Translations under genes and position numbers: made by a program
The notes under the pieces: generated by a model
The model's input: only the letters and a program-made list of their open reading frames with translations
What the model was told of the DNA's origin: nothing
Databases searched by the model: none
Shown here: positions 3,202 to 63,712 of the stretch, one piece after another
Numbering within the stretch: the stretch's first letter is position 1
Layout: each line of letters opens with the position of its first letter
Assembly (NCBI RefSeq): GCF_900156625.1
Contig: NZ_FTOB01000010.1
Span: 1 to 64,000 of the forward strand
DNA length: 64,000 bases
DNA from: Zobellia uliginosa
GTDB taxonomy: Bacteria; Bacteroidota; Bacteroidia; Flavobacteriales; Flavobacteriaceae
Direction of reading: 5' to 3'

Positions 3202-3273
3202 TTTCTTCTGTGGTTGGAAAGGCTTAAGACCGTATCATTGGGCTTAGGGGCTACCACGGCCTAAGAAAGTGTA

Positions 3274-3357: not shown

Positions 3358-3442
3358 GTCTTGTTTATGGTAGTGGAAATACAGAAAGTATCCTTGTACA
3401 AGTCAAAAGAACCCTAGTTTAATACAGCGATTTTAAATTCCT

Positions 3443-4363: not shown

Positions 4364-4378
4364 GGGTAATGTGTGTCT

Positions 4379-42385: not shown

Positions 42386-42407
42386 CATACCGTATACTTT
42401 ATAATAG

Positions 42408-42436
42408 AAAGGGCCCCGTACATACGAGGCCCTTTT
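42408..42436. terminator. Terminator between rny and the sulfatase gene
   Basis: AAAGGGCC (42408-42415) pairs with GGCCCTTT (42428-42435), with an inner CGTA/TACG stem. It separates two convergent transcripts and marks the right edge of the core-genome region. Confidence 0.85.
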
Positions 42437-42455
42437 CGTTTGGTAATTATAATTT

Positions 42456-43937: not shown

Positions 43938-43983
43938 AACTGTAAATTTTAATATGTGTTTAAATGATGTTTTTCCTCTTTCA

Positions 43984-45627: not shown

Positions 45628-45659
45628 TCTTTTAGATTTTCATTTCCCCATATTTAAAA

Positions 45660-47775: not shown

Positions 47776-47839
47776 CAAATAAAGCACTAAAACCAAGCTT
47801 TCTTTTTACCTCTGTTAACTGCTGTTGGCACTATTTTAT
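47776..47839 (-). promoter_or_regulatory. Shared regulatory motif and -7 box, operon GH127-sulfatase-sulfatase
   Basis: The core GGCACTATTTTA (47827-47838, plus strand) is preceded at 47813 by TGTTAACT. The reversed -7 box CAAATAAA begins at 47776, exactly 51 bp from the core, and this distance is the same in all four copies. The operon start lies to the left at 47705. Position relative to the -7 box (about 30 bp further) fits a class II activator site, and no clear -33 element is seen. Confidence 0.75.
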
Positions 47840-47888
47840 CTATTTGGTTGGGTTTGGTCTGTTTTTTTGGCCTTCTAAGGGAGAGGGG

Positions 47889-49859
47889 CTAATCCTTCCA
47901 GATCACGGGCATGAATACGGTCATTTCGGCCTGTCCTCTATTGCTCCATGCGAAATAGGGTATCAGCTGGGTACTGTGAGGCTTCCATTCAGGTTTTTTG
48001 ATTGTTCTGTAAATGCCTTCGCCCTTATCCTTGCGTATCAAAATTTCTCCTTCCAATGTGGTGATCCCCCCTAAAAAGTCGGGGCGATAAATGGGCTTTA
48101 GCTTTTTGTTCCCATTGAAATAGACATCTAGGATATCGGTATCCTTCGGTAGGTCGGGAGACTCAATGCAGTAGACTACGGGTCCGCGTTTTACGGCTAT
48201 TTGGTTACGTACTTCTTCAATTCTTGGGTGGCCTTCTATAAATTCGACTTCCATGGGCATATCAAGAATGAGCACATCGCCTTTTTTCCAATTGCGTTCA
48301 AATTGGGCAAAACTTCCCGGTTCTAAAGATGTGGTTAATTCTTCACCGTTCAGCGTGAGTTTTGAATTCTTGGCCCATTTTGGAATACGCAGACTAATGG
48401 TGAAAGCCTCCGTTTTACATTCGTCAATATTCAATTTTACCCTTCCTTGCCACGGATATTCCGTTTCTTGGGAAATCTGAATAGGAGAACCGTCTTGAAG
48501 GTGGGAAACGAGATTATTGGCACCATAGAGATTTACGGTTATTCCGTTTTCCGAGAGGCTATAGGCCCACTCTGAAACTGTGGCAATGGTGCGGACCAAA
48601 TTTGGAGGGCAGCAGAAACAGCTCAGATACGGTTCCCTGTTGGGAGTTTCGGTGACATTTTCATGTGCGTTGTAGTCTCTGGTATTGTTGAGCATTCGTA
48701 AGGGATTCGCGTAAAAATATTCCTTTCCGGTTACGCTGATGCCCGAAAGGGCACTGTTGTAAAGGACGAGCTCGACGATATCGGCGTATTTTGCCTCGCC
48801 GTTCAGGTTTAACATGCGATAGCTGAACATAGCGTTACATAAGTTGGCACAGGTTTCGTTATAGGCGGTCATATTGGGCATCATATAGGCATCGATAAAG
48901 CCTTCCTCTATCATATCACGATTTACCGAAGCCCCATAATGGGCCTGGCCCACGGCTCCGGTAACGTACATTTTTTGGGTCGTCACATTTTCCCATAAAC
49001 GGTCTAGTGCATCAATAAGGGCTTTTTCCCCTGTTTCAGCGTAGACGTCAGCAGCGCCGGCGTAGTAGTATAAAGCAAGCACGGCATGGCCCACGGCTTC
49101 ATGCGATTCGCGCAGGGGCGTGCGTTCCTGTACCATATCGCCAATGGGGTATCCCTCGGTGGTAGGGTGGTGTTTTACTTCGTATTTACCACGGTTATTG
49201 ATGAACTTTTCCGCCAAGTCCAAATACTTTTTGTCGTCCACCGTACGGTACAGTTCAACCAAGCCCATTATCTGGGTCTGGTTGAAGCCAAAGCGGCCGT
49301 AATGTTTGGTGTCGGGCATAAAAATAGTGTACAATAAATCGGCATGTTTGATGGCGATATCGAGGAAATTACCTTGCCCGGTGACCCTGTGGTGAATGCA
49401 GGCGCTGATAAGCAAATGCCCGGTGTTGTACATTTCGTGGTACTTTCGGTTTTCGTAACGGTCTACGTCTTTCCGAAGCTGTACTTGGGTCTGAAGGTAT
49501 CCGTCTTTTTCTTGGGCTTTAGCAATGATGTCTATGTATTGGTCCAATTCTTTTAATAACGCCTTATTTTTGGTATGGGCATACACATAGGTCTTGGCTT
49601 CCATGAATTTGTAGAAGTCACCGTCATGCCAAAACATGCCTTGGTGTTCTCCTTCCTTTTCGCCGGCCGCTATTTTAAAATTATTAAGCGCGTGGCCTAC
49701 CTCCCCACACAGTACATCGCCCATGTAGGGGACCATGGCATTGGCGCAAAGTTGGAATTTATCGGCCCAAAAACCTGAGGTCCACTGGCAATCGCCGATG
49801 TTCAAACTTTTTAGTTGGGTATAAGGACTTTTCCTATTGGCGGGAGTGGCTTGTTTCAT
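47889..49859 (-). CDS. GH127-family glycosidase, no signal peptide
   Basis: A 656-residue GH127 enzyme that begins MKQATPANRKSPYTQLKSLN with no signal peptide or lipobox, so it is predicted to be cytoplasmic. The catalytic set is complete: YNETCANLCNAMFSYR and SCFCCPPNLVRTIA. It resembles the lipoprotein enzyme at 51518 more than the one at 45660. It follows the MFS transporter gene (36 bp) and would act on disaccharides brought in by it, probably releasing 3,6-anhydro-D-galactose inside the cell. Confidence 0.87.
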   Translation of the reverse strand: MKQATPANRKSPYTQLKSLNIGDCQWTSGFWADKFQLCANAMVPYMGDVLCGEVGHALNNFKIAAGEKEGEHQGMFWHDGDFYKFMEAKTYVYAHTKNKALLKELDQYIDIIAKAQEKDGYLQTQVQLRKDVDRYENRKYHEMYNTGHLLISACIHHRVTGQGNFLDIAIKHADLLYTIFMPDTKHYGRFGFNQTQIMGLVELYRTVDDKKYLDLAEKFINNRGKYEVKHHPTTEGYPIGDMVQERTPLRESHEAVGHAVLALYYYAGAADVYAETGEKALIDALDRLWENVTTQKMYVTGAVGQAHYGASVNRDMIEEGFIDAYMMPNMTAYNETCANLCNAMFSYRMLNLNGEAKYADIVELVLYNSALSGISVTGKEYFYANPLRMLNNTRDYNAHENVTETPNREPYLSCFCCPPNLVRTIATVSEWAYSLSENGITVNLYGANNLVSHLQDGSPIQISQETEYPWQGRVKLNIDECKTEAFTISLRIPKWAKNSKLTLNGEELTTSLEPGSFAQFERNWKKGDVLILDMPMEVEFIEGHPRIEEVRNQIAVKRGPVVYCIESPDLPKDTDILDVYFNGNKKLKPIYRPDFLGGITTLEGEILIRKDKGEGIYRTIKKPEWKPHSTQLIPYFAWSNRGQAEMTVFMPVIWKD

Positions 49860-49895
49860 CTAGGCAAAAAATGTTTGATATTATATGTTTGATCT

Positions 49896-51476
49896 CTAAG
49901 TCTGTCTTTTTGGTTTGGGGGCCAAGGCCAGTTGTACTTCTTCAATGGACATGTTTTTGGTTTCCTTTAAAAAGAAATACAAAATGACCATGCCTATGGT
50001 CACTACAATGGCATAGAACAATAATGTTAAGCTAATGCCCATGGTGGCCAATTGCCAAGGGAAAAACTTCTGTACCAAATAGCTCACAAAGCTGGTGACC
50101 AAGGTGAAAAATGGTATGGCGATACCCCTGAGGGAAATCGGAAAAATTTCTGAAAACAAGACCCACATTACCGGGCCGATGGAAAAGTGAAAGGCCCCGA
50201 TAAAACTCAATATGCCCAATAGAATGAGCAGGGCGTTTATATTGGCCGCTTTTTGTAAGAGTAGTCCCGAATAAGCTTTGGCGTCAGTTTCCCCGAGGGT
50301 CTCGTTGAGTGCTTTCTTAAAACTGATGTCGCTATCGAAAGGCACATCTATCAGGGGATTCAATCTTTCTGCATCGGGTATGGACGACATTTCGGAAATA
50401 GCACTTTCGGTAATGGTATAATTGGCGGTTTCAAATCCGTAATAGCAAACCCCGAGACTCAATACGATCCAGAGCATGCCCCAAATAATCATCGGTCGCC
50501 GGCCTATTCTGTCGACTAATAGTAAGCCTAAAACCGTAAAGACTACACTGGTCAGGCCAATGTAGATGGCCTGTGCAAAAGCGGCGTCGGTTCCGATACC
50601 TAATTGTTCGAACACGGTTGGTGCGTAGAAAAGAATGGCGTTTATGCCCGTTGCCTGCTGGGCTATGGCAAGGGTCATCGCAATGACCATGGTAATCCGC
50701 ATCGGTCTACTGAAAATTTCTTTCAATTGCGTGAGCATGGAGCGGTCTTGGTTGCTATTCTCGATACTAGACCGCATTTCCTGAATTTTTTGCGCAATTT
50801 CATTTTGGGGCGTAACCTTTAAGAGCATTTTTTCCGCTTCGTCTTCCCTGCCTTTGTAGAGTAACCAAGCCGGTGATCGAGGGATGAAAAACAAGAGAAC
50901 GAACCACAAGAGGGCAAAAATCACTTCGGTGGCCAACATCCAGCGCCAAGTATGTTGGTTAATCCCCAAGGCAGCTACCCAATGGGCATCGGAATCGGCT
51001 AGGCCAAGGATCAAATAATTGATGAAGTAGGCCGCCGATAAGCCTAGAACGATATTGATCTGGGTCATCGAGACCAATTTGCCACGCCATTTTGGAGGGG
51101 CTATTTCACCGATATACATTGAGGCCAATGAAATTGAACTAAAAGCGAGTCCGCCTAAGAAGCGTGCGGTTATAAGGGTCCAGTAGGTAGGGGCCAAAGA
51201 AGAGCATACCGCTGAAACCAGATAAAGTATAGCGGCGAACATCAGGGTGGTTCTTCGGCCGTATTTATTACAGGCATAGCCAACAAATACCAAGGCCAAG
51301 AGTACACCCATAGCGGGAGCTCCCACAACGGAGCCCAGTTCTAGGTCGGTAAGCGAGAATTCCTGTGTTATAAACTTTACCGTTCCCGATATTAATGCGG
51401 CGTCCAACCCGAAGACAAAGCCACCCATAGCTACAATGGTTGCGTACGTAAAAGCATTCTTTTTATAAGAACCCAT
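49896..51476 (-). CDS. MFS sugar porter
   Basis: A 526-residue inner-membrane transporter of the sugar porter family with 12 predicted transmembrane segments. Motifs include GFVFGLDAALISG in helix 1, YACNKYGRRTTL (GxxxDRxGRR type), IPRSPAWLLYKGRE (PESPRWL type), LVDRIGRRPMI and the C-terminal LKETKN. A longer loop between helices 8 and 9 (SAISEMSSIPDAERLNPLIDV) is unusual. It probably imports carrageenan-derived galactose, anhydrogalactose or oligosaccharides. It sits between two GH127 genes in one operon. Confidence 0.9.
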   Translation of the reverse strand: MGSYKKNAFTYATIVAMGGFVFGLDAALISGTVKFITQEFSLTDLELGSVVGAPAMGVLLALVFVGYACNKYGRRTTLMFAAILYLVSAVCSSLAPTYWTLITARFLGGLAFSSISLASMYIGEIAPPKWRGKLVSMTQINIVLGLSAAYFINYLILGLADSDAHWVAALGINQHTWRWMLATEVIFALLWFVLLFFIPRSPAWLLYKGREDEAEKMLLKVTPQNEIAQKIQEMRSSIENSNQDRSMLTQLKEIFSRPMRITMVIAMTLAIAQQATGINAILFYAPTVFEQLGIGTDAAFAQAIYIGLTSVVFTVLGLLLVDRIGRRPMIIWGMLWIVLSLGVCYYGFETANYTITESAISEMSSIPDAERLNPLIDVPFDSDISFKKALNETLGETDAKAYSGLLLQKAANINALLILLGILSFIGAFHFSIGPVMWVLFSEIFPISLRGIAIPFFTLVTSFVSYLVQKFFPWQLATMGISLTLLFYAIVVTIGMVILYFFLKETKNMSIEEVQLALAPKPKRQT

Positions 51477-51517
51477 ATGATTGTTTAAGTTAAGTTATGG
51501 CCAATGGATACGGGGTC

Positions 51518-53596
51518 TTAATTCCAGATTACCGGCAAGAAAACCGTCATTTCGCCTTGGCCTCTATTGCTCCAAGCATAGTAAGGTATAAAATTGGTTT
51601 TAAACGATTGAAAATCGGGTGTGCTGACTTCTTGATACATCTTGCCGAGCTTATCCTTTCGGATAAGGATTTCGCCTTCAAGAGTGGTTACTCCTCCTAG
51701 AAAATCAGGTCTAAAGGTTGGGGAAAGTTTGTTTTCAGAGGAAAGGTAGACATCGGTGATATCTGTATTCTTCGGGAGGTCGGCCGACTCGATACAGTAG
51801 ACTACCGGTCCCCGTTTCAAGGCTACTTGGTTGCGGACTTCTTCAATACGGGGGTGGCCTTCAATGAACTTGGTTTCCATGGGCATATCGATAGTAATTT
51901 CATCTCCGGGCTTCCATTTTCTTTCGATTTTGGAAAAGGTACCGGGTACGGCTTCGGCCACTTTTGTGCCGTTTACTTTAATATGGGTACCCTTGGCCCA
52001 ACTAGGTATGCGAAGAAGAAGGTCGAAAGCATCGGCCTTGCATTCATCGATTGTAATTTTAATGGCCCCATTCCATGGGTAATCTGTTTTTTGGGTAAGC
52101 CTTATGGGGGAGCCGTCCATTAAGGTCGTATTCAATTCGTTTCCTCCGTAAAGGTTGACCGCTATACCATTTTCCGATTTGCTGTAAGCCCAGCCTGGGG
52201 ATTTGGCAATGGTTCGGACTAGGTTGGGAGGACAGCAGAAGCACTTAAGATAGGGCTGTCTTTCAGGAAACTCAACGTTCATTTTGTCATAATCTAGGGC
52301 ACCTTCAATTTTTCGTAGGGGATTGGAATAGTAGTAGTGTTTCCCTTCAAGACTGATGCCCGAGAGACCGCTATTGTGCAAGACAAGCTCCATAATGTCA
52401 CCGTGTTTGGCATCGCCTGTTAGCGTGAGCATTCGATAGTTGAACATGGAATTACAAATGTTCGCACAAGTTTCGTTATAGGCGGTCATATTGGGCATCA
52501 TGTACTCGTCGATAAAGCCTTCCTCGATTTTATCGAGACGGGAAGAACGGCCGTAATGCGTTTGACCCACGGCGCCTGTAACGTACATTTTTTTGTTGGT
52601 CACGTTGTCCCATAATCGCTCTAGGGCATCGATCAGTGCCTTTTCGCCGGTTTCGGCATATACATCGGCGGCTCCTGCATAGTAGTAAAGGGCCAGCACG
52701 GCATGGCCGACGGCCTCGGTTTCTTTGCGAAGCGGAACCCGCTCTTGTACCATATCGCCAATAGGATATCCTTTTGTGGTTTCGTCATCTTCAATTTTAT
52801 AGGTGCCGCGCATATTTATAAATTGCTCGGCCAGTTCTAGGTAGCGCTTGTCTTTAGTGGTTCGGTACAATTCTACAAGGCCCATTATCTGGGTCTGATT
52901 GAAGCCAAAACGCTTTAAGTGTTCGGGTTTGGGCGAAAAAAGTTTGTATAGGTAGTCGGCATGTTTTACCGCAATGTCAAGAAAGTTGGTCTTTCCGGTC
53001 AGCCTATAATGGATACATGCACTGGTAAGGAGGTGACCGCTATTGTACAGCTCGTGGTACCTTCTATTGGTAAAGGGCTCTATGTCATCTCGAATAATGG
53101 CCGGTGTTGAGAGGTAGCCATCGTCTTGTTGGGCTTGGGCGATTACATCTATAATTTCATCCATTTCCTCAACAATTTTTTCGTCCTTGTTTACACCATA
53201 GATATACATTTTGGCTTCCATCCATTTATAGAAGTCCCCATCGTGCCACCAGAATCCTTTGTGTTCGCCCTCTTTGAGTCCGGCCGCAATTTTAAAGTTG
53301 TTGTAGCCGTGGCCGACATCCCCTTTTAGGATTTCGCCCATATGGGGTATCATCGTTTCTTCGGCAACTTTCCACTTTTCGGCCCAGAAGCCTTCGGTCC
53401 ACCTACAATCACCGATGTCAATACTCTTTAGCTTGACATGTGGACTGTTCGTATTGTTGATGATGCCACTACCGGAATCAAGGTGTGATGCGTAATCGTT
53501 GGTAGTCGCTGATTCGGTTGGGGACTGTTCAACTGGGCTTTGTTTACAAGAAAGTACGCTTAGTGCAATACAGATGGATAAGCTTATGTTTTTCAT
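51518..53596 (-). CDS. GH127-family glycosidase, lipoprotein
   Basis: A 692-residue GH127 with a lipobox (ALSVLSC, C17), so membrane-anchored in the periplasm or at the surface. Family zinc ligands are in AYNETCANICNSMFNY and KCFCCPPNLVRTIA. It shares long segments (GYPIGDMVQERVPLR, AVGHAVLALYYYAGAADVYAETGEKALIDAL in pieces) with the cytoplasmic enzyme at 47889, indicating a local duplication followed by loss or gain of the export signal. It leads the operon GH127-MFS-GH127. The 307-bp gap upstream holds the shared motif. Confidence 0.87.
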   Translation of the reverse strand: MKNISLSICIALSVLSCKQSPVEQSPTESATTNDYASHLDSGSGIINNTNSPHVKLKSIDIGDCRWTEGFWAEKWKVAEETMIPHMGEILKGDVGHGYNNFKIAAGLKEGEHKGFWWHDGDFYKWMEAKMYIYGVNKDEKIVEEMDEIIDVIAQAQQDDGYLSTPAIIRDDIEPFTNRRYHELYNSGHLLTSACIHYRLTGKTNFLDIAVKHADYLYKLFSPKPEHLKRFGFNQTQIMGLVELYRTTKDKRYLELAEQFINMRGTYKIEDDETTKGYPIGDMVQERVPLRKETEAVGHAVLALYYYAGAADVYAETGEKALIDALERLWDNVTNKKMYVTGAVGQTHYGRSSRLDKIEEGFIDEYMMPNMTAYNETCANICNSMFNYRMLTLTGDAKHGDIMELVLHNSGLSGISLEGKHYYYSNPLRKIEGALDYDKMNVEFPERQPYLKCFCCPPNLVRTIAKSPGWAYSKSENGIAVNLYGGNELNTTLMDGSPIRLTQKTDYPWNGAIKITIDECKADAFDLLLRIPSWAKGTHIKVNGTKVAEAVPGTFSKIERKWKPGDEITIDMPMETKFIEGHPRIEEVRNQVALKRGPVVYCIESADLPKNTDITDVYLSSENKLSPTFRPDFLGGVTTLEGEILIRKDKLGKMYQEVSTPDFQSFKTNFIPYYAWSNRGQGEMTVFLPVIWN

Positions 53597-53734
53597 AGTG
53601 GTAAATCTTTAAGGTATAGCTATGGTGTAACTCATAAATGTTTCCTTTTGCGTTTTTAGGATGCAATACAAGCTTGATGCAACCCTGAAAAGGCAAGGGG
53701 AAAATAATCGTGCATACTCAAATGGCACAGCATA

Positions 53735-53799
53735 CAAATAAAGGCCAATTAAGAAGGATCTAATTGACAAATATTATCTTGTTGTGGCACTATTTTACC
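53735..53799 (-). promoter_or_regulatory. Shared regulatory motif and -7 box, operon GH127-MFS-GH127
   Basis: TATTATCT (53772) and the core GGCACTATTTTA (53786-53797) on the plus strand, with reversed -7 box CAAATAAA at 53735, 51 bp from the core. The 307-bp gap (53597-53903) otherwise shows no gene; no sulfatase remnant is visible. Confidence 0.75.
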
Positions 53800-53903
53800 C
53801 TTATATGTTAAAGAGGTGAGTCGTAAAAGGTACTTGAGTACGAGTTCAAGGGTGTTTTATCTTGTGATTTTAGCGGGTAATGACATACCTTCAATGGTGT
53901 TTT

Positions 53904-55988
53904 TTATTCATCCATATGGAGGCTGACCTGAAAATGGCCAGTCTTTAGGGAGCCGTCTTTCATTTTAATTCTATACCCATAGCCCGGAATTGTAATGCCG
54001 CCTTCTATTTTTTGGGCAACGGGCCCTAGATTGGCGATTACTTCGGTGCCACTTGAAAAGCGGCTTCTTTGTACCTTATAGTCGGCACTTAAGTATTCAT
54101 GGCTCTGTAGCTCTGAGAAGAAAGTTTCTTTGTGTACGGGTGCTACTAGGTCCCTGGCCATTTCTATCATGGGGCGCATGCCTTCAAATTCATAAGGGGA
54201 AAAGAAAATGGTCGTACCCCTTCCGAACAACATACTTCGCAAGGCCTTGATCCTAAAATCGCCATTGGCGGTAACCTCATTGTCGGGGTCTTGAATTTTT
54301 CCAAAATTGGCTATTGCTTCATGGTACACCAAATTGAACAGCGGGGCAGGGTGTGAGATGACCGAAAGTGGGCGGTCTTCCAAATAAGTCATTCCTTCGA
54401 ACATATCAAAGTATGGGATCCATTGCTCTTGTCCGTGTTCGGTTCCGTTGACAAGGTTAAAACTATCAATGTATTTGGCCAGTTCAATACGACCTTCTTT
54501 TCCGTTTTCACGATATGCGGCAAAAGTAATATCGGTTATATCTGCCTCTAGGCCCAAGTATGAAATTTCCTTTTCAATGTTTTTCTGGGCCAACCCTTTT
54601 TGGAACTTGGGGTCAACACGTGCCCAACGGCTACCGGTATTCATCAATTTTCCTTCGGCATCGCGTTGCATAAGGTCGGTCGTAAAATTCGGGTCGTTTT
54701 CCAACATGGGCGAATAGGCGTGGTAAGACGAGTACAAATACCCGTAAGATTTAGCCAAATCTACCGCGGCCTTCAGTTTTTCAGGACCTCCCAAGGCTTC
54801 GCTAATAGGGTAGTTGTGAGGAACGAAATTCGAAAAAGTGCCCCACGCATGAACAAAGGCCTTGTCTACCTTTAAATCATCGTGAATGGTCTTTATGATG
54901 TTTTTTAATTCGTCGAAAGTAAAGGCCATACCGGGCATGTTCACGTAGTGCGGATATCCGCCGTAAATACCGAAATAAATAGCCCCGGGAAGTTTGTTGA
55001 CGTTCGGGTTTCGCTTTAATTTTTCTTGGAGCGAAACAAAGTGGCCACGTGCCTTGGCCTCTTTTTGGTAAACTTTGGCCATGTCAACGTAATCGCCACC
55101 GGGAATAAAATGGTAGCTCATTCTCATTTTTCCCTTTTCTTGATCCAATTTCCAAATGGGATCAAGAAATACAATACGCTGGTAAGGAGACATTACTCCC
55201 TTGGCATTGAAAAGGTATTGTCCGTTATTGTTGATGTTGTATTGCATGTGTGGACGGGCCGAAACATCTACAATGCCTATAACCGCCGATTTTTCATTGT
55301 AGGTACCCCACCAAGGCATGGTAAGTCCCGTACCGTTGTTGAACAGTTCTAAAGAACCTTGCGATTTGTTGTTGTAGGTGGCATCGTCCCACTTGCAGAA
55401 ACGTCCCCCGTTCATGGGGAAGATGTATGAAGGACAGATAACGCCCTGCTTTTGGGGAATTACCGCCGCCCCTTTGTCTTCATCGGTTTTTAAACTAAAG
55501 GCCCTGGCGGGATAACGCAGGTCGAAGAGGGTAAAATTGCCTGAACGGTGTTCCATCACTTCAACGTCTAATTGGGTGTTGTTGGGGTCTAGCCTTAACT
55601 CTGTCGCGATAGAGACGCCTTTTGCAACGGAGCCGTCTGCAAAAACCGGGTCGATAAATTTTAGGGATACCGTATTTTTTCCGGTTTTGGAAACTTCGAT
55701 TTTTTTGCTCTTTGAAATATTGACGGTCTGCTTTTTTCCTTTGGGATCGCTCAGGGTCAGTAGGCCTGCGGCATGGTCCCACGGATCCGATTTCCAGAGG
55801 TGGCCAGAGATTTTTTCCGTAACCGAAAAGCAGCCCGTTTTAGAATCGACGCTGATATTCAATTTTTCGTTCTCCAAAACAATAGGGTCTGGGCTAACGG
55901 AGTCAAAGGCAAGACCTTTGAATGCGGTCAAACAGGTGATAACCAAGAGTACAAGGGTGTTTTTTGCTAATGTGCTATTGTTTTTCAT
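53904..55988 (-). CDS. GH129-like glycosidase, exported
   Basis: A 694-residue protein with signal peptide (about residues 1-28) and a C-terminal catalytic region related to GH101/GH129 (alpha-N-acetylgalactosaminidase superfamily). Recognisable stretches are LEADITDITFAAYREN and IPYFDMFEGMTYLEDRPL, which hold acidic residues that could be the catalytic pair, and FVHAWGTFSNFVPHNYPISEA. In the Zobellia carrageenan system a GH129 also acts as an exo-alpha-(3,6-anhydro)-D-galactosidase. It is the last gene of the anhydrogalactose operon, 61 bp after the aldolase gene. Confidence 0.75.
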   Translation of the reverse strand: MKNNSTLAKNTLVLLVITCLTAFKGLAFDSVSPDPIVLENEKLNISVDSKTGCFSVTEKISGHLWKSDPWDHAAGLLTLSDPKGKKQTVNISKSKKIEVSKTGKNTVSLKFIDPVFADGSVAKGVSIATELRLDPNNTQLDVEVMEHRSGNFTLFDLRYPARAFSLKTDEDKGAAVIPQKQGVICPSYIFPMNGGRFCKWDDATYNNKSQGSLELFNNGTGLTMPWWGTYNEKSAVIGIVDVSARPHMQYNINNNGQYLFNAKGVMSPYQRIVFLDPIWKLDQEKGKMRMSYHFIPGGDYVDMAKVYQKEAKARGHFVSLQEKLKRNPNVNKLPGAIYFGIYGGYPHYVNMPGMAFTFDELKNIIKTIHDDLKVDKAFVHAWGTFSNFVPHNYPISEALGGPEKLKAAVDLAKSYGYLYSSYHAYSPMLENDPNFTTDLMQRDAEGKLMNTGSRWARVDPKFQKGLAQKNIEKEISYLGLEADITDITFAAYRENGKEGRIELAKYIDSFNLVNGTEHGQEQWIPYFDMFEGMTYLEDRPLSVISHPAPLFNLVYHEAIANFGKIQDPDNEVTANGDFRIKALRSMLFGRGTTIFFSPYEFEGMRPMIEMARDLVAPVHKETFFSELQSHEYLSADYKVQRSRFSSGTEVIANLGPVAQKIEGGITIPGYGYRIKMKDGSLKTGHFQVSLHMDE

Positions 55989-56049
55989 CGTTGCGAATGA
56001 TATGGATTGAACTTTATAATTGAGGGTCGATAGGGTTTTGGGGAAAGGC

Positions 56050-56697
56050 TTATTCTTTTATAAAATCACTTATTTCGTTTTTCATTTTTAAAAAGTGCTT
56101 TTCAAGGTCGGCGTAATTACCGTCATGGATCATTTTTTTGTCAAAAAGGGAACTGGCCAGACCGGCGCCAACAGCTCCTGCTTCAAAAAATGATTTTATA
56201 TTTTCTACTGATACGCCTCCCGTAGGCAAAAGTTTTATTTCGTTCAGTGGGGCCAATACGTCTTTGATGTATTGAATGCCCAATTGGGTAGCTGGAAATA
56301 CTTTGACCGCCGAAGCTCCCAAAGACCACGCCCTATAAATTTCGGTAGGGGTATATGCCCCTGGGAAAATGGGGATATCATGGGCTACACAATGTTTGAT
56401 GACCTCTTCGTCGATAATAGGGGTTACGATAAATTGAGCCCCCGCCTCTAGGGCTACGGTCAAATCTTTCATGTTGCAAACCGTACCGGCACCTACGTTT
56501 AACTCTGGGTATTCTTTAGCCAAAGTGGCTATGGTTTGTGAGACCTCGGGTGAGTTCATGGTTATCTCAATGGTATAGTAGCCGCTACTCACATATGGAG
56601 GGATGATCTTAAGCACCTCTTCGGTAGTTAGGCCCCGTAAAATGCCGACGATGGGATTTTGATTGTATTTTTTCCAAGAAAATGAATTATTCTGCAT
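56050..56697 (-). CDS. 2-keto-3-deoxy-6-phospho-galactonate/gluconate aldolase
   Basis: A 215-residue class I aldolase of the KDPG/KDPGal family. The Schiff-base lysine is K132 (SAVKVFPATQLG) and the catalytic glutamate E44 (YTIEITMNS). VGAGTV and LLPTGGVS complete the barrel. It cleaves the phosphorylated keto-deoxy acid to pyruvate and glyceraldehyde-3-phosphate, the last step of 3,6-anhydro-D-galactose degradation. Its start overlaps the end of the kinase gene by 11 bp. Confidence 0.9.
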   Translation of the reverse strand: MQNNSFSWKKYNQNPIVGILRGLTTEEVLKIIPPYVSSGYYTIEITMNSPEVSQTIATLAKEYPELNVGAGTVCNMKDLTVALEAGAQFIVTPIIDEEVIKHCVAHDIPIFPGAYTPTEIYRAWSLGASAVKVFPATQLGIQYIKDVLAPLNEIKLLPTGGVSVENIKSFFEAGAVGAGLASSLFDKKMIHDGNYADLEKHFLKMKNEISDFIKE

Positions 56698-57640
56698 AGG
56701 TCTCTAGTATTTTTTTTTGTCCTTTAAGTAGTGCTTTTTCCAGTATCCGTTCTTCAAAACAAATGATTTCGTCCTTTGGTAAGAACGAGGCAAGGGCTAG
56801 TTTATATAGGGTATTGTATATTCCGCTTGCAGCTAGAAAAACGGTTTCCTTCCTGCGTTGCAAATTTGTTATCTCGGCACCGATCAAAAGTCCCGATAGG
56901 TAAAAGTAATTATCATGGCCCGATATATGGTTGAGTAAGGTGTTGGCCCTGATGGAGAATAGCGATGGCATGCATTGGTTGGTAAGGCCTTTCTCTACGC
57001 CTTCCAAAAAAATGTTTTGAAAGGAAGTCTCCCATTGGGCCGGTTCAAGCGAGGCCGATAAAATGCTATGCCGACTTATGATTTCAAATAGTTCACCGGT
57101 CATAAAAGTAGTGAAGTCTTTAAAGATTCCCTTTTCAAAACGGATATGCTTGCTGTGGGTACCCGGTAATAATAAGGTTCCCGATTTGTGATGGGCGAGT
57201 TCTTCGGCCAGGCCAACCGCTTGTATTTCTTCGCCCCGCATTACGTCAGATTTGGAGGAAACACCCGAAACAAGTAGTACATTGGGCATGGAATCAAAAG
57301 GGATGAACTCACTTGACAAGTCCATTCCATCAAAGGAAAAGGGCATGGGCGCATAGCTCAACTCTTTCATTCCGATGGATGAGGAAAGCATACCCGAAGC
57401 AACAATGATCCTGTCGTTGTCTTCGGCTATGTTCAATGCTTTTAATTGTTCTTTAAGATAGGCTGCAAAAAATTGGTCCTGTTTCATTTCGGATTGGGAC
57501 TTGAATTGTTGAAAACGCTTCTTTGTGCCCATATCGGTTGTATGTTCGCACAGAACATCCAAGGTGTCGGTATCTACCCAACGCAATCTGAAATTAGAGG
57601 TACCCCAATCACAGCTAATAAAATTTTTTGGTAATTTCAT
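56687..57640 (-). CDS. 2-keto-3-deoxy-galactonate kinase (DgoK family)
   Basis: A 317-residue kinase of the DgoK family. The N-terminal phosphate-binding motif is SCDWGTSNFRLRWVDT, followed by SGMLSSSIGMKELSY, VSSKSDVMRGEE and LLLPGTHSKHIRFE. It phosphorylates 2-keto-3-deoxy-galactonate at O6 using ATP. It lies between aldolase and dehydrogenase genes with overlapping ends (4-bp overlap with the dehydrogenase), which suggests coupled translation. Confidence 0.9.
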   Translation of the reverse strand: MKLPKNFISCDWGTSNFRLRWVDTDTLDVLCEHTTDMGTKKRFQQFKSQSEMKQDQFFAAYLKEQLKALNIAEDNDRIIVASGMLSSSIGMKELSYAPMPFSFDGMDLSSEFIPFDSMPNVLLVSGVSSKSDVMRGEEIQAVGLAEELAHHKSGTLLLPGTHSKHIRFEKGIFKDFTTFMTGELFEIISRHSILSASLEPAQWETSFQNIFLEGVEKGLTNQCMPSLFSIRANTLLNHISGHDNYFYLSGLLIGAEITNLQRRKETVFLAASGIYNTLYKLALASFLPKDEIICFEERILEKALLKGQKKILETYAE

Positions 57641-59088
57641 TGGCGTAGTAAGGCTTTGGTTACTCTTTTTTTCGCAAGATAGTCATCTAGGGCATAAGTA
57701 GAGCAGTCGACACCGATACCGCTATTCTTCACCCCACCATGGGGTAGGTATATGTCGTATTTTACGCCGTTCAGTTGTACTTCCCCGAATTCTAGGCGGT
57801 TCGCAAAGAAATCAAGGGTTTCGTTATTCTTTGAAAAGACATAAGAAGCTAGTCCCGCATCGGTATTATTGGCCAAAACAATAACTTCTTCTTTTGTTTT
57901 AAATGGAACAATGAGGGCTACAGGGCCGAAAATTTCATGCTGAAGTACTTCGACTTCGTTGTGGTCGAAAGTAATTACGGTAGGTTCAAAATAATAACCC
58001 GTGCCGTCTATAGCCTTTCCTCCATAGCGTAATTTACCTCCTTGTTCAATGGCTTTATTTACGATATGCTCTACTTTTTTTACCGAAGCTTTATTTGCTA
58101 AAGGTCCCATGTCGGGCTGGTTTTCGCGGCCAAAGCCTACTTTGGTACCACTAAATTTTTCTACCAGGCCCGCGGTAAAGTCCTCTAAAAGCGATTCGTG
58201 AACAAAAAAGCGGTTAGGTGCCACGCATATTTGACCGCTATTCCCTGTTTTTAGGGCTGCCCCGATATTTATGGCGAGTTCTAGGTCGGCATCGTGACAA
58301 ACGATGAAGGGGGCGTTTCCGCCACATTCCATACTGTATCTTTTGATCGAGGTTTTTGCACTTTGCGCAATAAGTTTTTGTGCGGTCTCGGTAGAACCTA
58401 TCATTGTGATGAGTCGGGGTATGGTACTTTCGCATAGCGGAATACCTACCTCATTGACATCGCCACAAAGCACGGTTATTACCCCTGGCGGGAAATTGAT
58501 TTCTTCGCAAAGCTCTCCGATAAGATATGCCGATAGGGGAGAGAATTCAGAGGGTTTTAGAATAATGCTCGAACCGGAAGCCAAGGCCGGGCCTAGTTTA
58601 AACCCAAGGTTGAGCAAGGGGAAGTTGTAGGCTAAAAATGCGACGGCAACCCCTAGGGGCTGTGATATAAAATGGTGTTCGTGCGTGCCCTCTTTGTCCT
58701 CAAGGGGAATGTCGGAACGTTTCTTGATTTCTTCCGAATAGTATTTTAGTGAATTGGTAATACTGGTGAGGTCTTCTTCGGTGCCTTCCCAGGTCTTGCC
58801 CATTTCATACATGATACTTTCCCGTAAACGGTCTTGGTTCTCTAGAATTTTATTCCTGAGCTTATCGATCCAATCCAAACGTTCGTTCAGGGGTAGGGCC
58901 GACCAGGTATTGAATCCTCTTTGTGCACTGTCAAGGGCCCTTTCGGTATCTTGGCGACTGGCCCAGGCAATTGTAGCGGTGGGTTTTTCGTCGGCGGGAC
59001 AAATTACCTCAAAAATTTTGTTGTCGGAGGCTTCTACAAGCTTTCCATCTATATATAGTTTTTTATGACCGAATTTTAGTTGCTCCAT
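57637..59088 (-). CDS. Aldehyde dehydrogenase, probable 3,6-anhydro-D-galactose dehydrogenase
   Basis: A 483-residue NAD(P)-dependent aldehyde dehydrogenase. Key residues are all present: N155 (YNFPLLN), E254 (SMECGGNAP) and the catalytic C288 (GNSGQICVAP). It probably oxidises 3,6-anhydro-D-galactose to the anhydro-galactonate, the first step of its catabolism. The assignment to this substrate comes from the operon, not from the sequence. It overlaps the cycloisomerase gene by 26 bp. Confidence 0.88.
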   Translation of the reverse strand: MEQLKFGHKKLYIDGKLVEASDNKIFEVICPADEKPTATIAWASRQDTERALDSAQRGFNTWSALPLNERLDWIDKLRNKILENQDRLRESIMYEMGKTWEGTEEDLTSITNSLKYYSEEIKKRSDIPLEDKEGTHEHHFISQPLGVAVAFLAYNFPLLNLGFKLGPALASGSSIILKPSEFSPLSAYLIGELCEEINFPPGVITVLCGDVNEVGIPLCESTIPRLITMIGSTETAQKLIAQSAKTSIKRYSMECGGNAPFIVCHDADLELAINIGAALKTGNSGQICVAPNRFFVHESLLEDFTAGLVEKFSGTKVGFGRENQPDMGPLANKASVKKVEHIVNKAIEQGGKLRYGGKAIDGTGYYFEPTVITFDHNEVEVLQHEIFGPVALIVPFKTKEEVIVLANNTDAGLASYVFSKNNETLDFFANRLEFGEVQLNGVKYDIYLPHGGVKNSGIGVDCSTYALDDYLAKKRVTKALLRQ

Positions 59089-60229
59089 CTTTGTGTATTT
59101 CTTTATCTAAATAGTGTTCTAGTTTATCCATATCGACATCAACGCCTAAACCGGGAGTGCATGGTACTTCCAAATGGCCGTTTTCCAATTTGATCTTATG
59201 GAGTGTAACCTCGTCTCGCAGGGCGTTTTCGGTTCTGTCAAGTTCCATGGTGGGTAAGTCGTTGTACATTCTCCCCGGGTTTTTATCAAGGTTGGCCACT
59301 AAGTGTACAGCGGCACTAATGGCGATCCATGTACCCCAAGTATGTGGAACCAGGTCAATGTTATAAGTCTGGGCCAGGGTTGCTATTTTCTTGACTTCCG
59401 TAAGTCCACCCGCGGCACAGATGTCGGGTTGGGCGATGTCTACGCAATCTTTATCGAAAAGACGTTTAAAGCCATATTTTAAATATTCGCATTCGCCGCC
59501 CGATATGGGTATGGTCGTATTTTGCCTCAATCGTTTATAGCCGTCGTAATCTTCGGGTGACACGGGTTCTTCAAACCACGAAATATCGAATTTCTCGGCT
59601 TTTCTGGCCAGTTCTATGGCTTCCTTATAGCAATAGGCATGATTGGAATCGATCATTAATCGCATATCGGGACCAATGGCCTTGCGAATCGCGGCAATAT
59701 ATTTGAGGTCTTGTTCTATGCCCAGGCCTACTTTCATTTTTGTGGCCTTGAACCCTTGAGATTTGTACAATAAAGCCTCTTCGACCAGTAGCTCTTCAAG
59801 GTTTTCGGTTCGGGTAAAATAGAGGCCCGTCGCGTATGGTTCTATAATTGGGTTTTTGACCCCGCCCAAAAGGACGGATACAGGTAGATTCAGCAATTTG
59901 CCCTTGATGTCCCACAAGGCTACATCGATAGCACTGATGGCGGCTTGAAGCACACCGCTTCTCGCGTAATCCATAGATCGTCTGTACATCTCCTGCCATA
60001 AGACCTCATGCCCCATAGCTTCCTTTCCCAGTAGGAAGGGGGTAAAGAAATCGATTCCGGATTTAATGACCGCGGCAGGTCCATAGCCTTCTCCCCATCC
60101 ATAGGTGCCATCATCTAAGGTAACCTTCACGATACATATTTTTCGAGTGTCGTACTGCCATTGCGAAAAATAGAAAGGCGTGTCTAGTTTATGGCTGATG
60201 ACATAGGGTTCTATCTTTTTGATTTTCAT
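59063..60229 (-). CDS. Enolase-superfamily cycloisomerase (3,6-anhydro-D-galactonate)
   Basis: A 388-residue member of the mandelate racemase group of the enolase superfamily. Catalytic lysines are in ATKMKVGLG (KxK), metal ligands in LMIDSNHAY, SWFEEPVSPEDY and GGECEYLKYG, and the general acid/base region in LVPHTWGTW. In context it opens the anhydro ring of 3,6-anhydro-D-galactonate to 2-keto-3-deoxy-galactonate. Homologues include galactonate and fuconate dehydratases, so the substrate is assigned by neighbourhood. It is the second gene after the RhaT-family transporter (35 bp). Confidence 0.87.
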   Translation of the reverse strand: MKIKKIEPYVISHKLDTPFYFSQWQYDTRKICIVKVTLDDGTYGWGEGYGPAAVIKSGIDFFTPFLLGKEAMGHEVLWQEMYRRSMDYARSGVLQAAISAIDVALWDIKGKLLNLPVSVLLGGVKNPIIEPYATGLYFTRTENLEELLVEEALLYKSQGFKATKMKVGLGIEQDLKYIAAIRKAIGPDMRLMIDSNHAYCYKEAIELARKAEKFDISWFEEPVSPEDYDGYKRLRQNTTIPISGGECEYLKYGFKRLFDKDCVDIAQPDICAAGGLTEVKKIATLAQTYNIDLVPHTWGTWIAISAAVHLVANLDKNPGRMYNDLPTMELDRTENALRDEVTLHKIKLENGHLEVPCTPGLGVDVDMDKLEHYLDKEIHKDGATKIRS

Positions 60230-60264
60230 AATTTAAAAGGCTTATAGTTAATGAAATGCTTGGT

Positions 60265-61272
60265 TTAATAGTTGGCGTAACCTAAGATACATATGGCAAC
60301 GATGAGAACGGCAAGACCGCTCAATAAAATTTTGAAGGGTCTGTCCGCGTTTTTCCATTCGCCTTCCCTATAGCCCCAAATATTGCTGATGATCAAGGCC
60401 AAGCCTAAAAGAATGGGCCAGCCTACCACAGGACCTAGGTTTCCCATCAGGGCGGCACCTTGTCCGTATACACCAAGGGCGGCGAACCAGAAAATGCCCG
60501 CTAAAATTGCCCAGCCAAGGGCTTTACGCTTGTTAGGCACCCGGTAGGCATTCCACGATTTATTCTTGATAAATAGATAGAGCGCATAGCCGCCGTTCAT
60601 GGCAAAGGCGCCTAAGAGCACGACGACCCAAGAGGCCAAGCTCGCATTTTGGGCGTCTACCCCATATTGTGTCACGGCAACACTGGCTACCGGTGCGGCA
60701 TTGGAAAAACCAATATTCAAAAATGCGGAAAGTACCCCTGATGCCACGGCGATCAGTACTCCCAGTTTTATAGATTTACTTGTAGTGGAGGAATTGCTGT
60801 GGAGCTTGTCCCTTTGTACCCCGGCCACGGCCGTAATGGCGACTCCTACGAGAAGAAGGGCTACGCCCAACATGATTATGGGAAAGGAGGGCTGTTCAAA
60901 TGCGCCTTCAATCTGGAAAAGCGGAATGATCGAACCCACCGATGCGGCAAGGCCCATTACAATACCGTAAGTTATCGATATGCCGGTTTTTTCTACACTT
61001 ACCCCAAAGAGAATACCCCCGATACCCCAGAGAAAGCCATAAAATGCGGCCAAGAACAAGGTGTTGCCCTCGGTTTGTGAAATAATCTCAAAAAGGTTCG
61101 GTATAACTATTAGGGCCCATAGTATAGGAAACAATAGCATAGCCGTGAAGGCGTGAACCAACCACCATGCTTCCCATTTCAGGGGAGCTATATGCTTCAT
61201 GCCCAATCCGAAGGTTCCTTGAAAAAAACTCGCGAATACGATTAAAACGATAGCCAAAATATAGGTGTCCAT
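60265..61272 (-). CDS. RhaT-family sugar/proton symporter
   Basis: An inner-membrane protein of about 335 residues with 10 predicted transmembrane helices, related to the L-rhamnose/proton symporter RhaT (family markers FASFFQGTFGLGMKHI and GIGGILFGVSVEKTGISITYGIVMG in pieces). I chose ATG 61272, since the stretch before it lacks membrane character and would begin only at 61341. It is the first gene of the anhydrogalactose operon, so its cargo is probably 3,6-anhydro-D-galactose rather than rhamnose. That is inference from position. Confidence 0.82.
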   Translation of the reverse strand: MDTYILAIVLIVFASFFQGTFGLGMKHIAPLKWEAWWLVHAFTAMLLFPILWALIVIPNLFEIISQTEGNTLFLAAFYGFLWGIGGILFGVSVEKTGISITYGIVMGLAASVGSIIPLFQIEGAFEQPSFPIIMLGVALLLVGVAITAVAGVQRDKLHSNSSTTSKSIKLGVLIAVASGVLSAFLNIGFSNAAPVASVAVTQYGVDAQNASLASWVVVLLGAFAMNGGYALYLFIKNKSWNAYRVPNKRKALGWAILAGIFWFAALGVYGQGAALMGNLGPVVGWPILLGLALIISNIWGYREGEWKNADRPFKILLSGLAVLIVAICILGYANY

Positions 61273-61338
61273 GTATGGTTTTGTTTGATGTTTACAAATA
61301 AAAAAGTGAGGTAGAACGGTTAAGACCTTCAAGTGATA

Positions 61339-61401
61339 CAAAGAAAAATCAATAAGAAGCAGGTAGATTGGCCAATTTTACCTTAGTATGACATTATTTT
61401 A
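61339..61401 (-). promoter_or_regulatory. Shared regulatory motif and -7 box, anhydrogalactose operon
   Basis: TTTTACCT (61376) and the core GACATTATTTTA (61390-61401) on the plus strand, with reversed -7 box CAAAGAAA at 61339, again 51 bp from the core. This is the weakest of the four copies in sequence, with the same geometry. Confidence 0.65.
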
Positions 61402-61407
61402 TCCGTG

Positions 61408-62709
61408 TTATAACTCACTCAAATAATATAATGCCAGAACCAATAATCCACCACTTAAGGCTACTACGCCCGATAACAGGCTGAACGATTTTAACAATCG
61501 GGACACGGAAACGTCGTGGACTTCCTTGAACAACCAGAAAAAGCTGCTGTTCACATGGATGACCCCTAGGGAACCGGCGCCAATAGCGGCTGCGGTAAAG
61601 GTAGGGTGCAGTGTTCCGTTGGAAACCAAGGGGGCTACAATGGAGGCCGTGGTTATAAGGGAGACGGTAATGGAACCCGTAACCGTGGTGAACAATAGGC
61701 TCAATAAAAAGGGAATGACAATGCCCATGGCCGCAATATCCCCCATGTCGGAAAACATGGAGCCTACAATTTCAGTGTCTTTTATGACCTGGCCAAAGGC
61801 CCCTCCCGTTCCGGTAATAAGAATAACAATGGCCGATTTTTCTCCCGATGATTGAAAATAGGAGTTCAATAGGGTAGAAAAGTTTTTCTTTGGCAATAGG
61901 GGTAGGGCAAATAGAACCCCTATAAGAAGGGCCCATACAGGGTTTTTAATGAAAGATATGATTTCGTTTTCGAAGGGGTAAATAGTGCCTATGGACATCA
62001 AGAACAAGGGAACTAATAAGGCTGCAAACGGAAGGATCCGCTTAGGACCCTTTAGTAGGGCGACCGGAGCGGCTTCCGCTTCGGTTTGTGAAAGGGTATC
62101 AAGACTGAGGTTCTTCTTGTTGAACCGAATAAATATCAAGCCCCCGATGATGGCGGCTATGGCCACGGCTATGTTTATCGGAATCATTTCGCCGATATTG
62201 ATTTCGAGAATGGCGGCCACGGCAAGCGGACCTGGGGTAGGGGGGATTAAGGCATGGGCAACGGTTAGACTTATGGCCAATGATAGGCCCAGTGTAAGCA
62301 CCGAATGGCCTGATTTTTTCGACAGAACGAATATGGTGGGCAACAAGGTCAGGTAAGCAACATCCATAAAAACGGGAATGCCTATCAGAAAACCAATAAC
62401 CGCCATGCTTAGGGGGAGGTATTTGGTGCCAAAAAGACCAATGATACTATTGGCGATCACATCGGCCCCGCCTGTTCGTGCGAGAATTTCACCTAATAGC
62501 GTGCCGAACAAAATAATCAGTCCGATCCACTTCAGGGTATTCCCGAAACCGCTGAGCAGACTTTCGGTAACGACTTCTACCGAACTCCCCGTAGCCAAGC
62601 CCAAAATAAGGCCGCAAACCAAAAGGGCCGGTATGGGATGGACCTTAAACACGGTAACGGCAACAATCAGTAAGATGATGCAAAAAAGTAAGAACAATAA
62701 ACTGGTCAC
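61408..62709 (-). CDS. GntP-family gluconate/proton symporter
   Basis: A 433-residue inner-membrane transporter of the GntP family, with about 12 hydrophobic segments and family stretches VADVIANSIIGLFGTKYLP, IPPTPGPLAVA, TGTGGAFGQVIKDT and VTGSITVSLITTASI. GntP proteins carry gluconate and related aldonates. Here it might move galactonate-type acids formed in the pathway. It is monocistronic, has its own motif upstream, and is followed 66 bp before the core of the next motif. Confidence 0.88.
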   Translation of the reverse strand: MTSLLFLLFCIILLIVAVTVFKVHPIPALLVCGLILGLATGSSVEVVTESLLSGFGNTLKWIGLIILFGTLLGEILARTGGADVIANSIIGLFGTKYLPLSMAVIGFLIGIPVFMDVAYLTLLPTIFVLSKKSGHSVLTLGLSLAISLTVAHALIPPTPGPLAVAAILEINIGEMIPINIAVAIAAIIGGLIFIRFNKKNLSLDTLSQTEAEAAPVALLKGPKRILPFAALLVPLFLMSIGTIYPFENEIISFIKNPVWALLIGVLFALPLLPKKNFSTLLNSYFQSSGEKSAIVILITGTGGAFGQVIKDTEIVGSMFSDMGDIAAMGIVIPFLLSLLFTTVTGSITVSLITTASIVAPLVSNGTLHPTFTAAAIGAGSLGVIHVNSSFFWLFKEVHDVSVSRLLKSFSLLSGVVALSGGLLVLALYYLSEL

Positions 62710-62746
62710 TCGTTGGTATTTAAGTTAGGTCGCTTTTTCGTATGCT

Positions 62747-62809
62747 CAAATATAACCTAAAGCCCTTAGGGGGGAGACACGTGTATTATCTTGTGTCGGC
62801 ACTATATTA
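62747..62809 (-). promoter_or_regulatory. Shared regulatory motif and -7 box, gntP-family gene
   Basis: TATTATCT (62784) and the core GGCACTATATTA (62798-62809), with reversed -7 box CAAATATA (62747-62754; minus strand TATATTTG, a full TANNTTTG match), 51 bp from the core. It lies between the AraC-family gene and the transporter gene. Confidence 0.75.
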
Positions 62810-62827
62810 ACATTCTGCCCGGTAAAA

Positions 62828-63712
62828 TTATACCGCTTCTTTTTTCTTGTTGTATTTATGCATGTATTCCGTAGGGGTAATATTCATTAAGGCTTTGAAC
62901 TGTCGGTTGAAGTTGGTAAGGGTATTGAAGCCCGATTGGTAACAAATGGTGGAAATCTGCATTTCCCCCTCAATCAAAAGTTTACAGGCATTTCTTAATC
63001 GTATTTCGTTCAAATATTGGGTAAACGATTTTCGGGTGCGCTTTTTGAAGTAACGGCAAAAGGCATTGGGGGTCATATGTGCTATTGAAGCCACTTTTTC
63101 CAGCTCTATTTTCTTTTCAAAGTTTTCGGTAAGAAAGGTAATGACCTTGCCCATGCGGTCTTTTTCATTATTGTTATAGGTGTTGGCTATAACTTCTGAA
63201 CAGAGCGTTTTGTAATTTTCACTTATGGATAGGGTGTCGAGCACATTAAGAAGGCCTACAACACTAGATAGCCCTTGGTCACCGACAAGACCCGTAATCA
63301 GATTGTGGACCATATAAGTGGTAGCTTTTGAGAATTTTATGCCCCGGTCGGCAAGTTGGAATAGACTTTTTAGTTTTTGTGATTCGGTAAGATCCAAAAA
63401 TTCCCTACCTAGAAAATTTGATTCAAATTTGATTACGATGAGGTTGACGGCTTCGGCTTCCTGCTGGTCTTGATAGTATTCCTTATGGTTTTTGAACAGA
63501 TGCGGTACATTGCTTCCAATGAGATAGAGCTCCCCAGGGCCAAAACTTCCTATAGAATTGCCAACGTATCTGGTGCCACTGCTTTTTATAAAGTATATCA
63601 GCTCAAGTTCTTTATGGAAATGCCAGTTTTGCTCTATACACGGCAGTCGGTCTTGTCTCGCTAAAAAAGAGTTTTCAGGTCGTTTTTCGGTCTGTTTGTA
63701 CGTCAGCTTCAT
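62828..63712 (-). CDS. AraC-family transcriptional regulator
   Basis: A 294-residue regulator. The N-terminal cupin-like sensor (HFHKELELIYFIKSSGTRYVG) probably binds a small sugar. The C-terminal AraC/XylS DNA-binding domain has two helix-turn-helix units (ELEKVASIAHMTPNAFCRYF; QISTICYQSGFNTLTNFNRQ), ending FKALMNITPTEYMHKY. It stands at the head of the carrageenan-type locus and is the natural candidate to read the motif found before each operon to its left. No copy of that motif is seen in the 288 bp upstream of its own start. Confidence 0.92.
   Translation of the reverse strand: MKLTYKQTEKRPENSFLARQDRLPCIEQNWHFHKELELIYFIKSSGTRYVGNSIGSFGPGELYLIGSNVPHLFKNHKEYYQDQQEAEAVNLIVIKFESNFLGREFLDLTESQKLKSLFQLADRGIKFSKATTYMVHNLITGLVGDQGLSSVVGLLNVLDTLSISENYKTLCSEVIANTYNNNEKDRMGKVITFLTENFEKKIELEKVASIAHMTPNAFCRYFKKRTRKSFTQYLNEIRLRNACKLLIEGEMQISTICYQSGFNTLTNFNRQFKALMNITPTEYMHKYNKKKEAV

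Follow-up and report, generated by a model that had tools for sequence, protein, structure and literature searches.

In Escherichia coli, AraC activates araBAD from half-sites I1 and I2, which form a direct repeat with a 21-base-pair (bp) period adjoining RNA polymerase, and it does so without a good -35 box. Operators of this kind are already known, since 21-bp direct repeats have been reported for AraC-type regulators of Bacteroides. The RhaR motifs of Bacteroides and other bacteria are such repeats, read by AraC-family proteins that control sugar use (PMC3870299). Similarly, the hybrid two-component systems of B. thetaiotaomicron carry an AraC-type domain, and their motifs at polysaccharide utilization locus genes are direct repeats whose sites stand 21 bp apart on average (PMC3878776). 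In Zobellia galactanivorans, the carrageenan locus ZGAL_3145-3159 has been described, and CgrA was shown by deletion to be a positive regulator of carrageenan use (Ficko-Blean 2017, PMC5698469). Herein, the first 64,000 nucleotides of contig NZ_FTOB01000010.1 from Zobellia uliginosa, called the window, are analyzed. Gene order and Pfam content in the window agree with ZGAL_3145-3159, and a two-part DNA element precedes four of its operons. This element is, in all likelihood, the operator of CgrA.

The element differs from the araBAD operator in half-site sequence and in the type of sigma-A promoter. The RhaR motifs have another sequence, belong to other regulators, and serve rhamnose genes (PMC3870299). 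The B. thetaiotaomicron hybrids are membrane sensor kinases fused to a regulator, whereas CgrA consists of one component, with a sensor part that may be cupin-like. The Z. galactanivorans regulon is the same kind of locus, with the same regulator and the same induced genes; unlike here, neither a DNA site nor a promoter geometry is given for CgrA in the main text of PMC5698469. Where that text uses the words promoter, binding site, upstream, or operator, a CgrA site is never meant, in agreement with the original prediction, made from the letters of the window, that the site had not been described. A literature search on the CgrA site found none, and the available text of PMC5613140 and PMC12125979 describes none. 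As far as the searches show, what is new is the proposed CgrA operator, its fixed phase, a regulon defined by the operator, and its retention beside diverged AraC proteins.

Four copies of the element in the carrageenan locus

The element was originally described on the plus strand as TnTTAnCT, six variable bases, and GrCAyTATwTTA (a 26-mer), with CAAA at a fixed distance to its left. All four copies are present without a mismatch to this pattern, and CAAA starts exactly 51 bp to the left of all four cores. It had also been claimed that every gap longer than about 65 bp holds a copy. This is true of the four such gaps between cgsA and cgrA; a 70-bp gap at 42386-42455, the convergent left edge of the locus, was not counted and holds none. 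The short gaps inside the operons are empty as proposed, including the next largest one, 55989-56049 (61 bp). A sequence-only profile, R1, was built from 24 sites, the four in the window and 20 from relatives, none of them before cgsB2 or cgtA. A site is called strong when its profile expectation value (E) is at most 1e-4. The four proposed operators are as follows.

47813..47841, minus strand: operator of the dagA1-cgsB1-cgsA operon; exact match, profile E 5.7e-9 (training site)
53772..53800, minus strand: operator of the dagA3-MFS-dagA2 operon; exact match, profile E 1.6e-11 (training site)
61376..61404, minus strand: operator of the DMT-dauB-dauA(-dauC-dauD-dagB) operon; exact match, profile E 4.9e-12 (training site)
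62784..62812, minus strand: operator of the GntP permease gene; exact match, profile E 2.8e-8 (training site)

When up to three mismatches were allowed, the window held these four matches only, each with no mismatch, and 100 shuffles of the window gave a mean of 0.67 matches and at most 3. In the whole genome (5.30 Mb), the exact pattern occurs solely at these four places. With up to two mismatches there are 11 matches, compared with 5 for the reversed pattern. The four-copy observation is confirmed as exact and far beyond chance.

A 21-bp direct repeat in phase with the -7 box

Read on the sense strand, the element is GGnTAAAATArTGyc, a short spacer, and GGnTAAAAt, that is, a direct repeat of GGnTAAAAT with a 21-bp period. 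The repeat was measured over 45 aligned sites drawn from the 54 strong sites of the survey described below; six sites of genome G008, the GntP site of G004, and the sites G340:C1 and G362 were omitted. With one position left free, the upstream copy matches at 8.44 of 9 positions and the copy shifted by +21 at 7.38 of 9, compared with at most 5.02 of 9 at any other shift from 10 to 32. The 45 sites therefore carry the 21-bp direct repeat expected of an operator for an AraC/XylS-type activator.

On the promoter side, the 26-mer is followed by TTTG, at +34 counted from its end. Most -7 boxes read TTnnTTTG rather than TAnnTTTG, with T as the second base in 39 of 45 sites, and TTG at the -33 position is found in 0 or 1 of the 45 sites at every offset from 6 to 14. 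These promoters look in need of help, because they almost never have a -33 TTG and their -7 boxes usually have T at the second base. The sigma-A box TAnnTTTG of Flavobacterium psychrophilum spans -12 to -5 (PMC9723704). When this rule is applied, the repeat lies at about -70 to -34, and the transcription starts are predicted as listed.

47776..47783, minus strand: -7 box TTTATTTG, dagA1 operon; predicted start about 47771 by the position rule
53735..53742, minus strand: -7 box TTTATTTG, dagA3 operon; predicted start about 53730 by the position rule
61339..61346, minus strand: -7 box TTTCTTTG, DMT operon; predicted start about 61334 by the position rule
62747..62754, minus strand: -7 box TATATTTG, GntP gene; predicted start about 62742 by the position rule

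The same arrangement is found in relatives. In CgrA-bearing loci of Zobellia, Cellulophaga, Maribacter, and Pseudozobellia, the site again precedes GntP, DMT, and sulfatase genes. In Kriegella (L050), the 21 kb analyzed contain no match with up to three mismatches, and three profile hits lie elsewhere in that genome (G136). Among 28 sites chosen by eye, TTTG is at +34 in 27 and at +35 in one. Since these sites had been selected by eye, the spacing was tested again, blind to TTTG, in 12 loci of relatives, excluding the near-duplicate L048. On the sense strand, TTTG stood at exactly +34 in 12/12 matches with up to two mismatches, 9/12 with three, 4/20 with four, and 2/118 with five. Antisense matches with three to five mismatches had it in 0/191, with a background of 0.8%. 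A -7 box at a fixed distance from the operator, together with the lack of a -33 TTG, is the form of an activator-dependent sigma-A promoter of Flavobacteriaceae.

A different explanation needs no dedicated regulator: the shared words would belong to a strong promoter for sigma-A or an alternative sigma factor, or the promoters would be alike through recent copying from one another. The -7 box is indeed common to all sites, and gene duplications are known in the carrageenan system (dagA1-3 and cgsB1/cgsB2; PMC5698469). However, the DNA separating the repeat from the -7 box shows little conservation, although both ends are fixed. Strong hits are also rare, six in the genome, and are at functionally related genes. 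Gene duplication fails to explain the shared promoters, because the site-bearing genes span permeases, hydrolases, sulfatases, and receptors. This explanation is considered very improbable.

The element across the genome and in Z. galactanivorans

When R1 was run on the 5.3-Mb genome of Z. uliginosa, six strong sites were found: the four in the window and two that had been held out of training. The first held-out site, C13:345011 (E 2.5e-9), precedes a TonB-dependent receptor gene, the counterpart of cgtA; in G004, a SusD-family gene, cgtB, comes after the cgtA receptor gene. The second, C12:2078 (E 6e-8), precedes a sulfatase gene, the counterpart of cgsB2. Its product is 64.6% identical to CgsB1, and the published identity of CgsB2 and CgsB1 is 65% (PMC5698469). 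The two-mismatch matches of the 26-mer at C12:2116 and C13:345049 are these cgsB2 and cgtA sites; those on C10, C15, C18, and C23 and at C13:615695 are absent from the listed strong R1 hits and were dropped. The next R1 matches are C13:902274, with E 0.002, and then one with E 0.17. The original prediction would have been contradicted by sites spread randomly over the genome. Such a spread was not seen, and the extra strong sites are before cgsB2 and cgtA-cgtB.

Autoregulation of cgrA was also considered. There is no strong site before cgrA, only a partial match at C5:64301 (E 0.46), and cgrA itself does not respond to 3,6-anhydro-D-galactose (D-AnG) in the published data (PMC5698469); it was therefore set aside.

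Genome G004 is very probably that of Z. galactanivorans DsijT, because published locus numbers are proportional to positions in it: 181 at 0.211 Mb, 1973 at 2.300 Mb, 3159 at 3.657 Mb, and 3581 at 4.148 Mb. It has seven strong sites, the same six kinds and a seventh that precedes an iota-carrageenase-like reading frame (match to PDB 1h80, 1.7e-36), cgiA3 by position. On the minus strand of the G004 region L140, the iota-carrageenase region below the seventh site is split over the frames 3514-4503 and 2521-3405, the first of which has no in-frame ATG.

Agreement with published induction

The sites were compared with the carrageenan-induced genes, as the original prediction had proposed, through Table 1 of PMC5698469, an authors' selection of 29 genes. 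All seven strong sites of G004 precede units given there as carrageenan-induced. Within the table, 13 genes respond to D-AnG (3145-3150, 3155-3158, 181, 3580, and 3581), and all 13 are in units headed by a site. The 16 unresponsive genes are cgiA3, which has a site; 3151-3154, which lie behind dauA with no site of their own; and 11 genes in units with no strong site. Counted per unit, 6/7 units with a site respond to D-AnG versus 0/5 without (Fisher 0.015); in this test 3151-3154 are omitted as ambiguous, the units were grouped by the analyst, and siteless units were classed by the R1 scan as a whole rather than promoter by promoter. Induction falls from the dauA to the dauC counterpart: on kappa-carrageenan the log2 values are 8.1 and 3.6, and on D-AnG they are 5.6 and 1.2 (PMC5698469). 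This fall may reflect processing or attenuation within the operon. In the window, the dauA and dauC genes overlap at 57637-57640, where the published induction falls.

CgrA and its co-occurrence with the proposed operator

CgrA is a protein of 294 amino acids whose sole Pfam domain is AraC-type, and it is thus not a hybrid two-component protein. The C-terminal double helix-turn-helix is matched by HTH_18 (1.9e-21) and HTH_AraC (4.9e-10) and by fold to AraC-type DNA-binding domains. No Pfam domain was found in the N-terminal part. In a structure model of moderate confidence (mean predicted local distance difference test, pLDDT, 72.8), the N-terminal strands match the regulatory domains of AraC and RhaR, with target template-modelling scores of about 0.55-0.6. 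The N-terminal WHxHxxxE motif is conserved, as WHFHxE in 13 of 16 rows and as WHYHxxxE in the other three. Deletion of cgrA in Z. galactanivorans caused a lag and reduced growth on carrageenans, and complementation restored growth on kappa-carrageenan (PMC5698469).

Co-occurrence was surveyed in 397 genomes of the family, with E at most 1e-90 for a CgrA ortholog and E at most 1e-4 for a strong site. CgrA orthologs are present in 11 genomes and strong sites in 20; sites are found in 11/11 genomes with CgrA versus 9/386 without it (Fisher 2e-16). The strong sites number 54. Twelve of them were used in training or nearly copy a training site, and others are orthologous to training sites in closely related species. 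By the analyst's reading, 50 of the 54 are at carrageenan-type genes, including two G008 sites placed by spacing alone and the G079 site, for which the sole basis is a receptor with 52% identity to CgtA. Of the remaining four, three (G136:C19:100410, G295:C23:2609, and G340:C1:530972) precede other SusC-type genes, and G362:C39:6162 is unrelated. This co-occurrence and the published positive role of CgrA support the AraC-family protein at 62828 as the candidate, as originally proposed.

Another AraC-type regulator could read the sites, with CgrA acting indirectly. A hybrid protein with kinase, receiver, and AraC-type helix-turn-helix is encoded beside cgsB2, divergent from it (L001:2272-6204, on C12), and in Bacteroides the motifs predicted for 16 such systems are direct repeats spaced by about 21 bp (PMC3878776). 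Z. uliginosa also has an AraC paralog of 37% identity roughly 3.5 kb away from the cgtA site. However, among the 11 genomes with CgrA, all of which carry sites, only 5 have a full-length relative of the hybrid: four Zobellia genomes and one further genome, at 66%. Another four have partial matches only, at 34-38%, and the last two have no match at E 1e-120. In G004, among the matches listed, the cgtA-side AraC covers residues 186-290 only and contains two internal stops; despite this broken remnant, cgtA and cgtB are still D-AnG-responsive in the strain that G004 very probably represents (PMC5698469). Because of these two observations, neither protein fits as the common reader, and the hybrid was set aside in that role. 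An indirect role of CgrA is therefore considered unlikely.

The nine site-bearing genomes without a CgrA ortholog suggest that related AraC proteins may read the same sequence. In eight of them, the site is in a carrageenan-type locus. Four of these loci have a distant AraC protein (36-40% identity) in the site region, and G243 has two in the next 20 kb; in G176, G191, and G252, no AraC match was found either in the site region or within 20 kb to one side of it. In a phylogenetic tree, the four distant proteins, one of them cut by the end of its region, form one clade separate from CgrA. The tree program warns of long branches meeting, and the fork joining both clades is weak (84/84) and also holds a group of Zobellia paralogs. 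The two AraC clades are about 35-40% identical and alike chiefly in the DNA-reading part, and the loci in which the operator stands beside a diverged AraC keep the same 21-bp repeat and -7 phase. The DNA-reading helices of the distant proteins resemble those of CgrA; similar helices occur in other AraC relatives, so this similarity alone is not specific. A tentative interpretation, to which we give about one chance in three, is that the operator is more stable than its reader: the operator would stay fixed and move together with the locus, and the regulator would have been exchanged or have had its sensor part remodelled. When 395 genomes from across the phylum were scanned, four had matches: Z. 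uliginosa itself, G126 (already found), G545 (in a carrageenan-type locus), and G541 (not in one).

Proposed mechanism and points against it

We consider it highly probable that the element is the operator of CgrA and that CgrA activates from it as AraC does at araBAD. The original proposal of an activator beside RNA polymerase is supported at the sequence level by exact phasing, conservation, the absent -33 TTG, and co-occurrence with CgrA. CgrA would sense D-AnG, or a metabolite made from it, through its N-terminal part. A CgrA dimer would occupy both half-sites, two helical turns apart, at about -70 to -34, immediately upstream of the position expected for a -33 box. Bound there, it would recruit or hold the sigma-A polymerase at a -7 box that is weak by sequence. 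The same operator would turn on the four operons of the window and the distant cgsB2 and cgtA-cgtB. Binding, dimer, ligand, polymerase contact, and transcription starts are the inferred parts of this mechanism.

Several observations weigh against it. In G004, cgiA3 has a strong site, yet its D-AnG log2 value is 0.1; it is induced by carrageenans. The counterparts of dauC, dauD, and dagB, closely behind dauA, are not significantly induced by D-AnG, and D-AnG also induces stress genes beyond the Table 1 set (PMC5698469). Since the cgrA mutant still grows, something besides CgrA also acts. The structure model supports general architecture only, at moderate confidence, and the spacing counts of 12/12 and 27/28 include loci that trained R1. 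In the survey, there are the nine genomes with a site and no CgrA ortholog, and in G362 no carrageenan gene is near the site. Three of the eight carrageenan-type loci without a CgrA ortholog lack the link to an AraC protein, which slightly lowers confidence in both the CgrA operator and a replaced regulator.

Genes of the locus and related sites

The genes of the locus in the window are listed below.

62828..63712, minus strand: cgrA, AraC-family regulator and proposed binder; HTH_18 1.9e-21, with model and fold matches
61408..62709, minus strand: GntP-family permease, counterpart of ZGAL_3158 by gene order; Pfam 2.7e-82
60265..61272, minus strand: RhaT/DMT-type sugar symporter, counterpart of ZGAL_3157; Pfam 7.9e-23 and gene order
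57637..60229, minus strand: dauB and dauA (cycloisomerase; 3,6-anhydro-D-galactose dehydrogenase); Pfam and gene order
53904..57640, minus strand: dauC, dauD, and dagB, downstream of dauA with no site of their own; Pfam and element scan
47889..53596, minus strand: dagA3, MFS permease, and dagA2; Pfam and gene order
42456..47705, minus strand: dagA1, cgsB1, and cgsA; Pfam and gene order

For the DMT gene (60265), the ATG at 61272 is preferred over the TTG at 61341, because the TTG would fall within the gene's own promoter; most orthologs have 335-338 amino acids. In the published locus and in G004, cgsC, a sulfatase gene, stands between dagA3 and dagB; it is missing from the window (53597-53903).

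Similar sites were seen at other genes. Sites L139 (G000:C13:902274-902341) and L157 (G008:C9:1142239-1142306) have the same repeat and phase, with E 0.002 and 0.27. The L139 site precedes an operon with dihydrodipicolinate-synthase-family and proline-racemase-family genes, and an AraC paralog with an identity of about 32% is encoded divergently. A wider AraC subfamily may share the site code. Outside the family, L218 (G541:C2:1555601-1555668) is a same-phase site before a non-carrageenan operon, with a divergent AraC 38% identical to CgrA. In four Zobellia genomes (L146, L148, L152, and L155), a SusC-type gene has a CgrA-like site (E 1e-5 to 0.02) some 430 bp ahead of it, with TTTG in 2/4. 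The annotated SusC-type locus with such a site, L210, encodes a cytochrome P450, its reductase, an alcohol dehydrogenase, a sulfatase, and a fucosidase, a set reminiscent of methyl-galactose (porphyran) loci, and its own AraC has different DNA-reading helices.

Significance

The 2017 study left open how a polysaccharide locus that has no susCD pair of its own is coordinated with faraway genes (PMC5698469). One phased operator would be a direct answer to the coordination of the scattered carrageenan genes. The operator also splits the D-AnG-responsive set from the polymer-only genes, cgkA, cgiA1, and the 3629-3638 locus. Since these respond only to polymers, a second regulator is probably needed for them, and cgiA3 may be another of its targets. 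A candidate for this role, only by its place, is the hybrid two-component gene beside cgsB2. In other genomes, the operator is a sequence tag that picks out carrageenan systems, and if the regulator has been replaced around it, the operator alone would find complete, scattered carrageenan systems. The sites also provide a matched promoter set for studying AraC-type activation in Bacteroidota.

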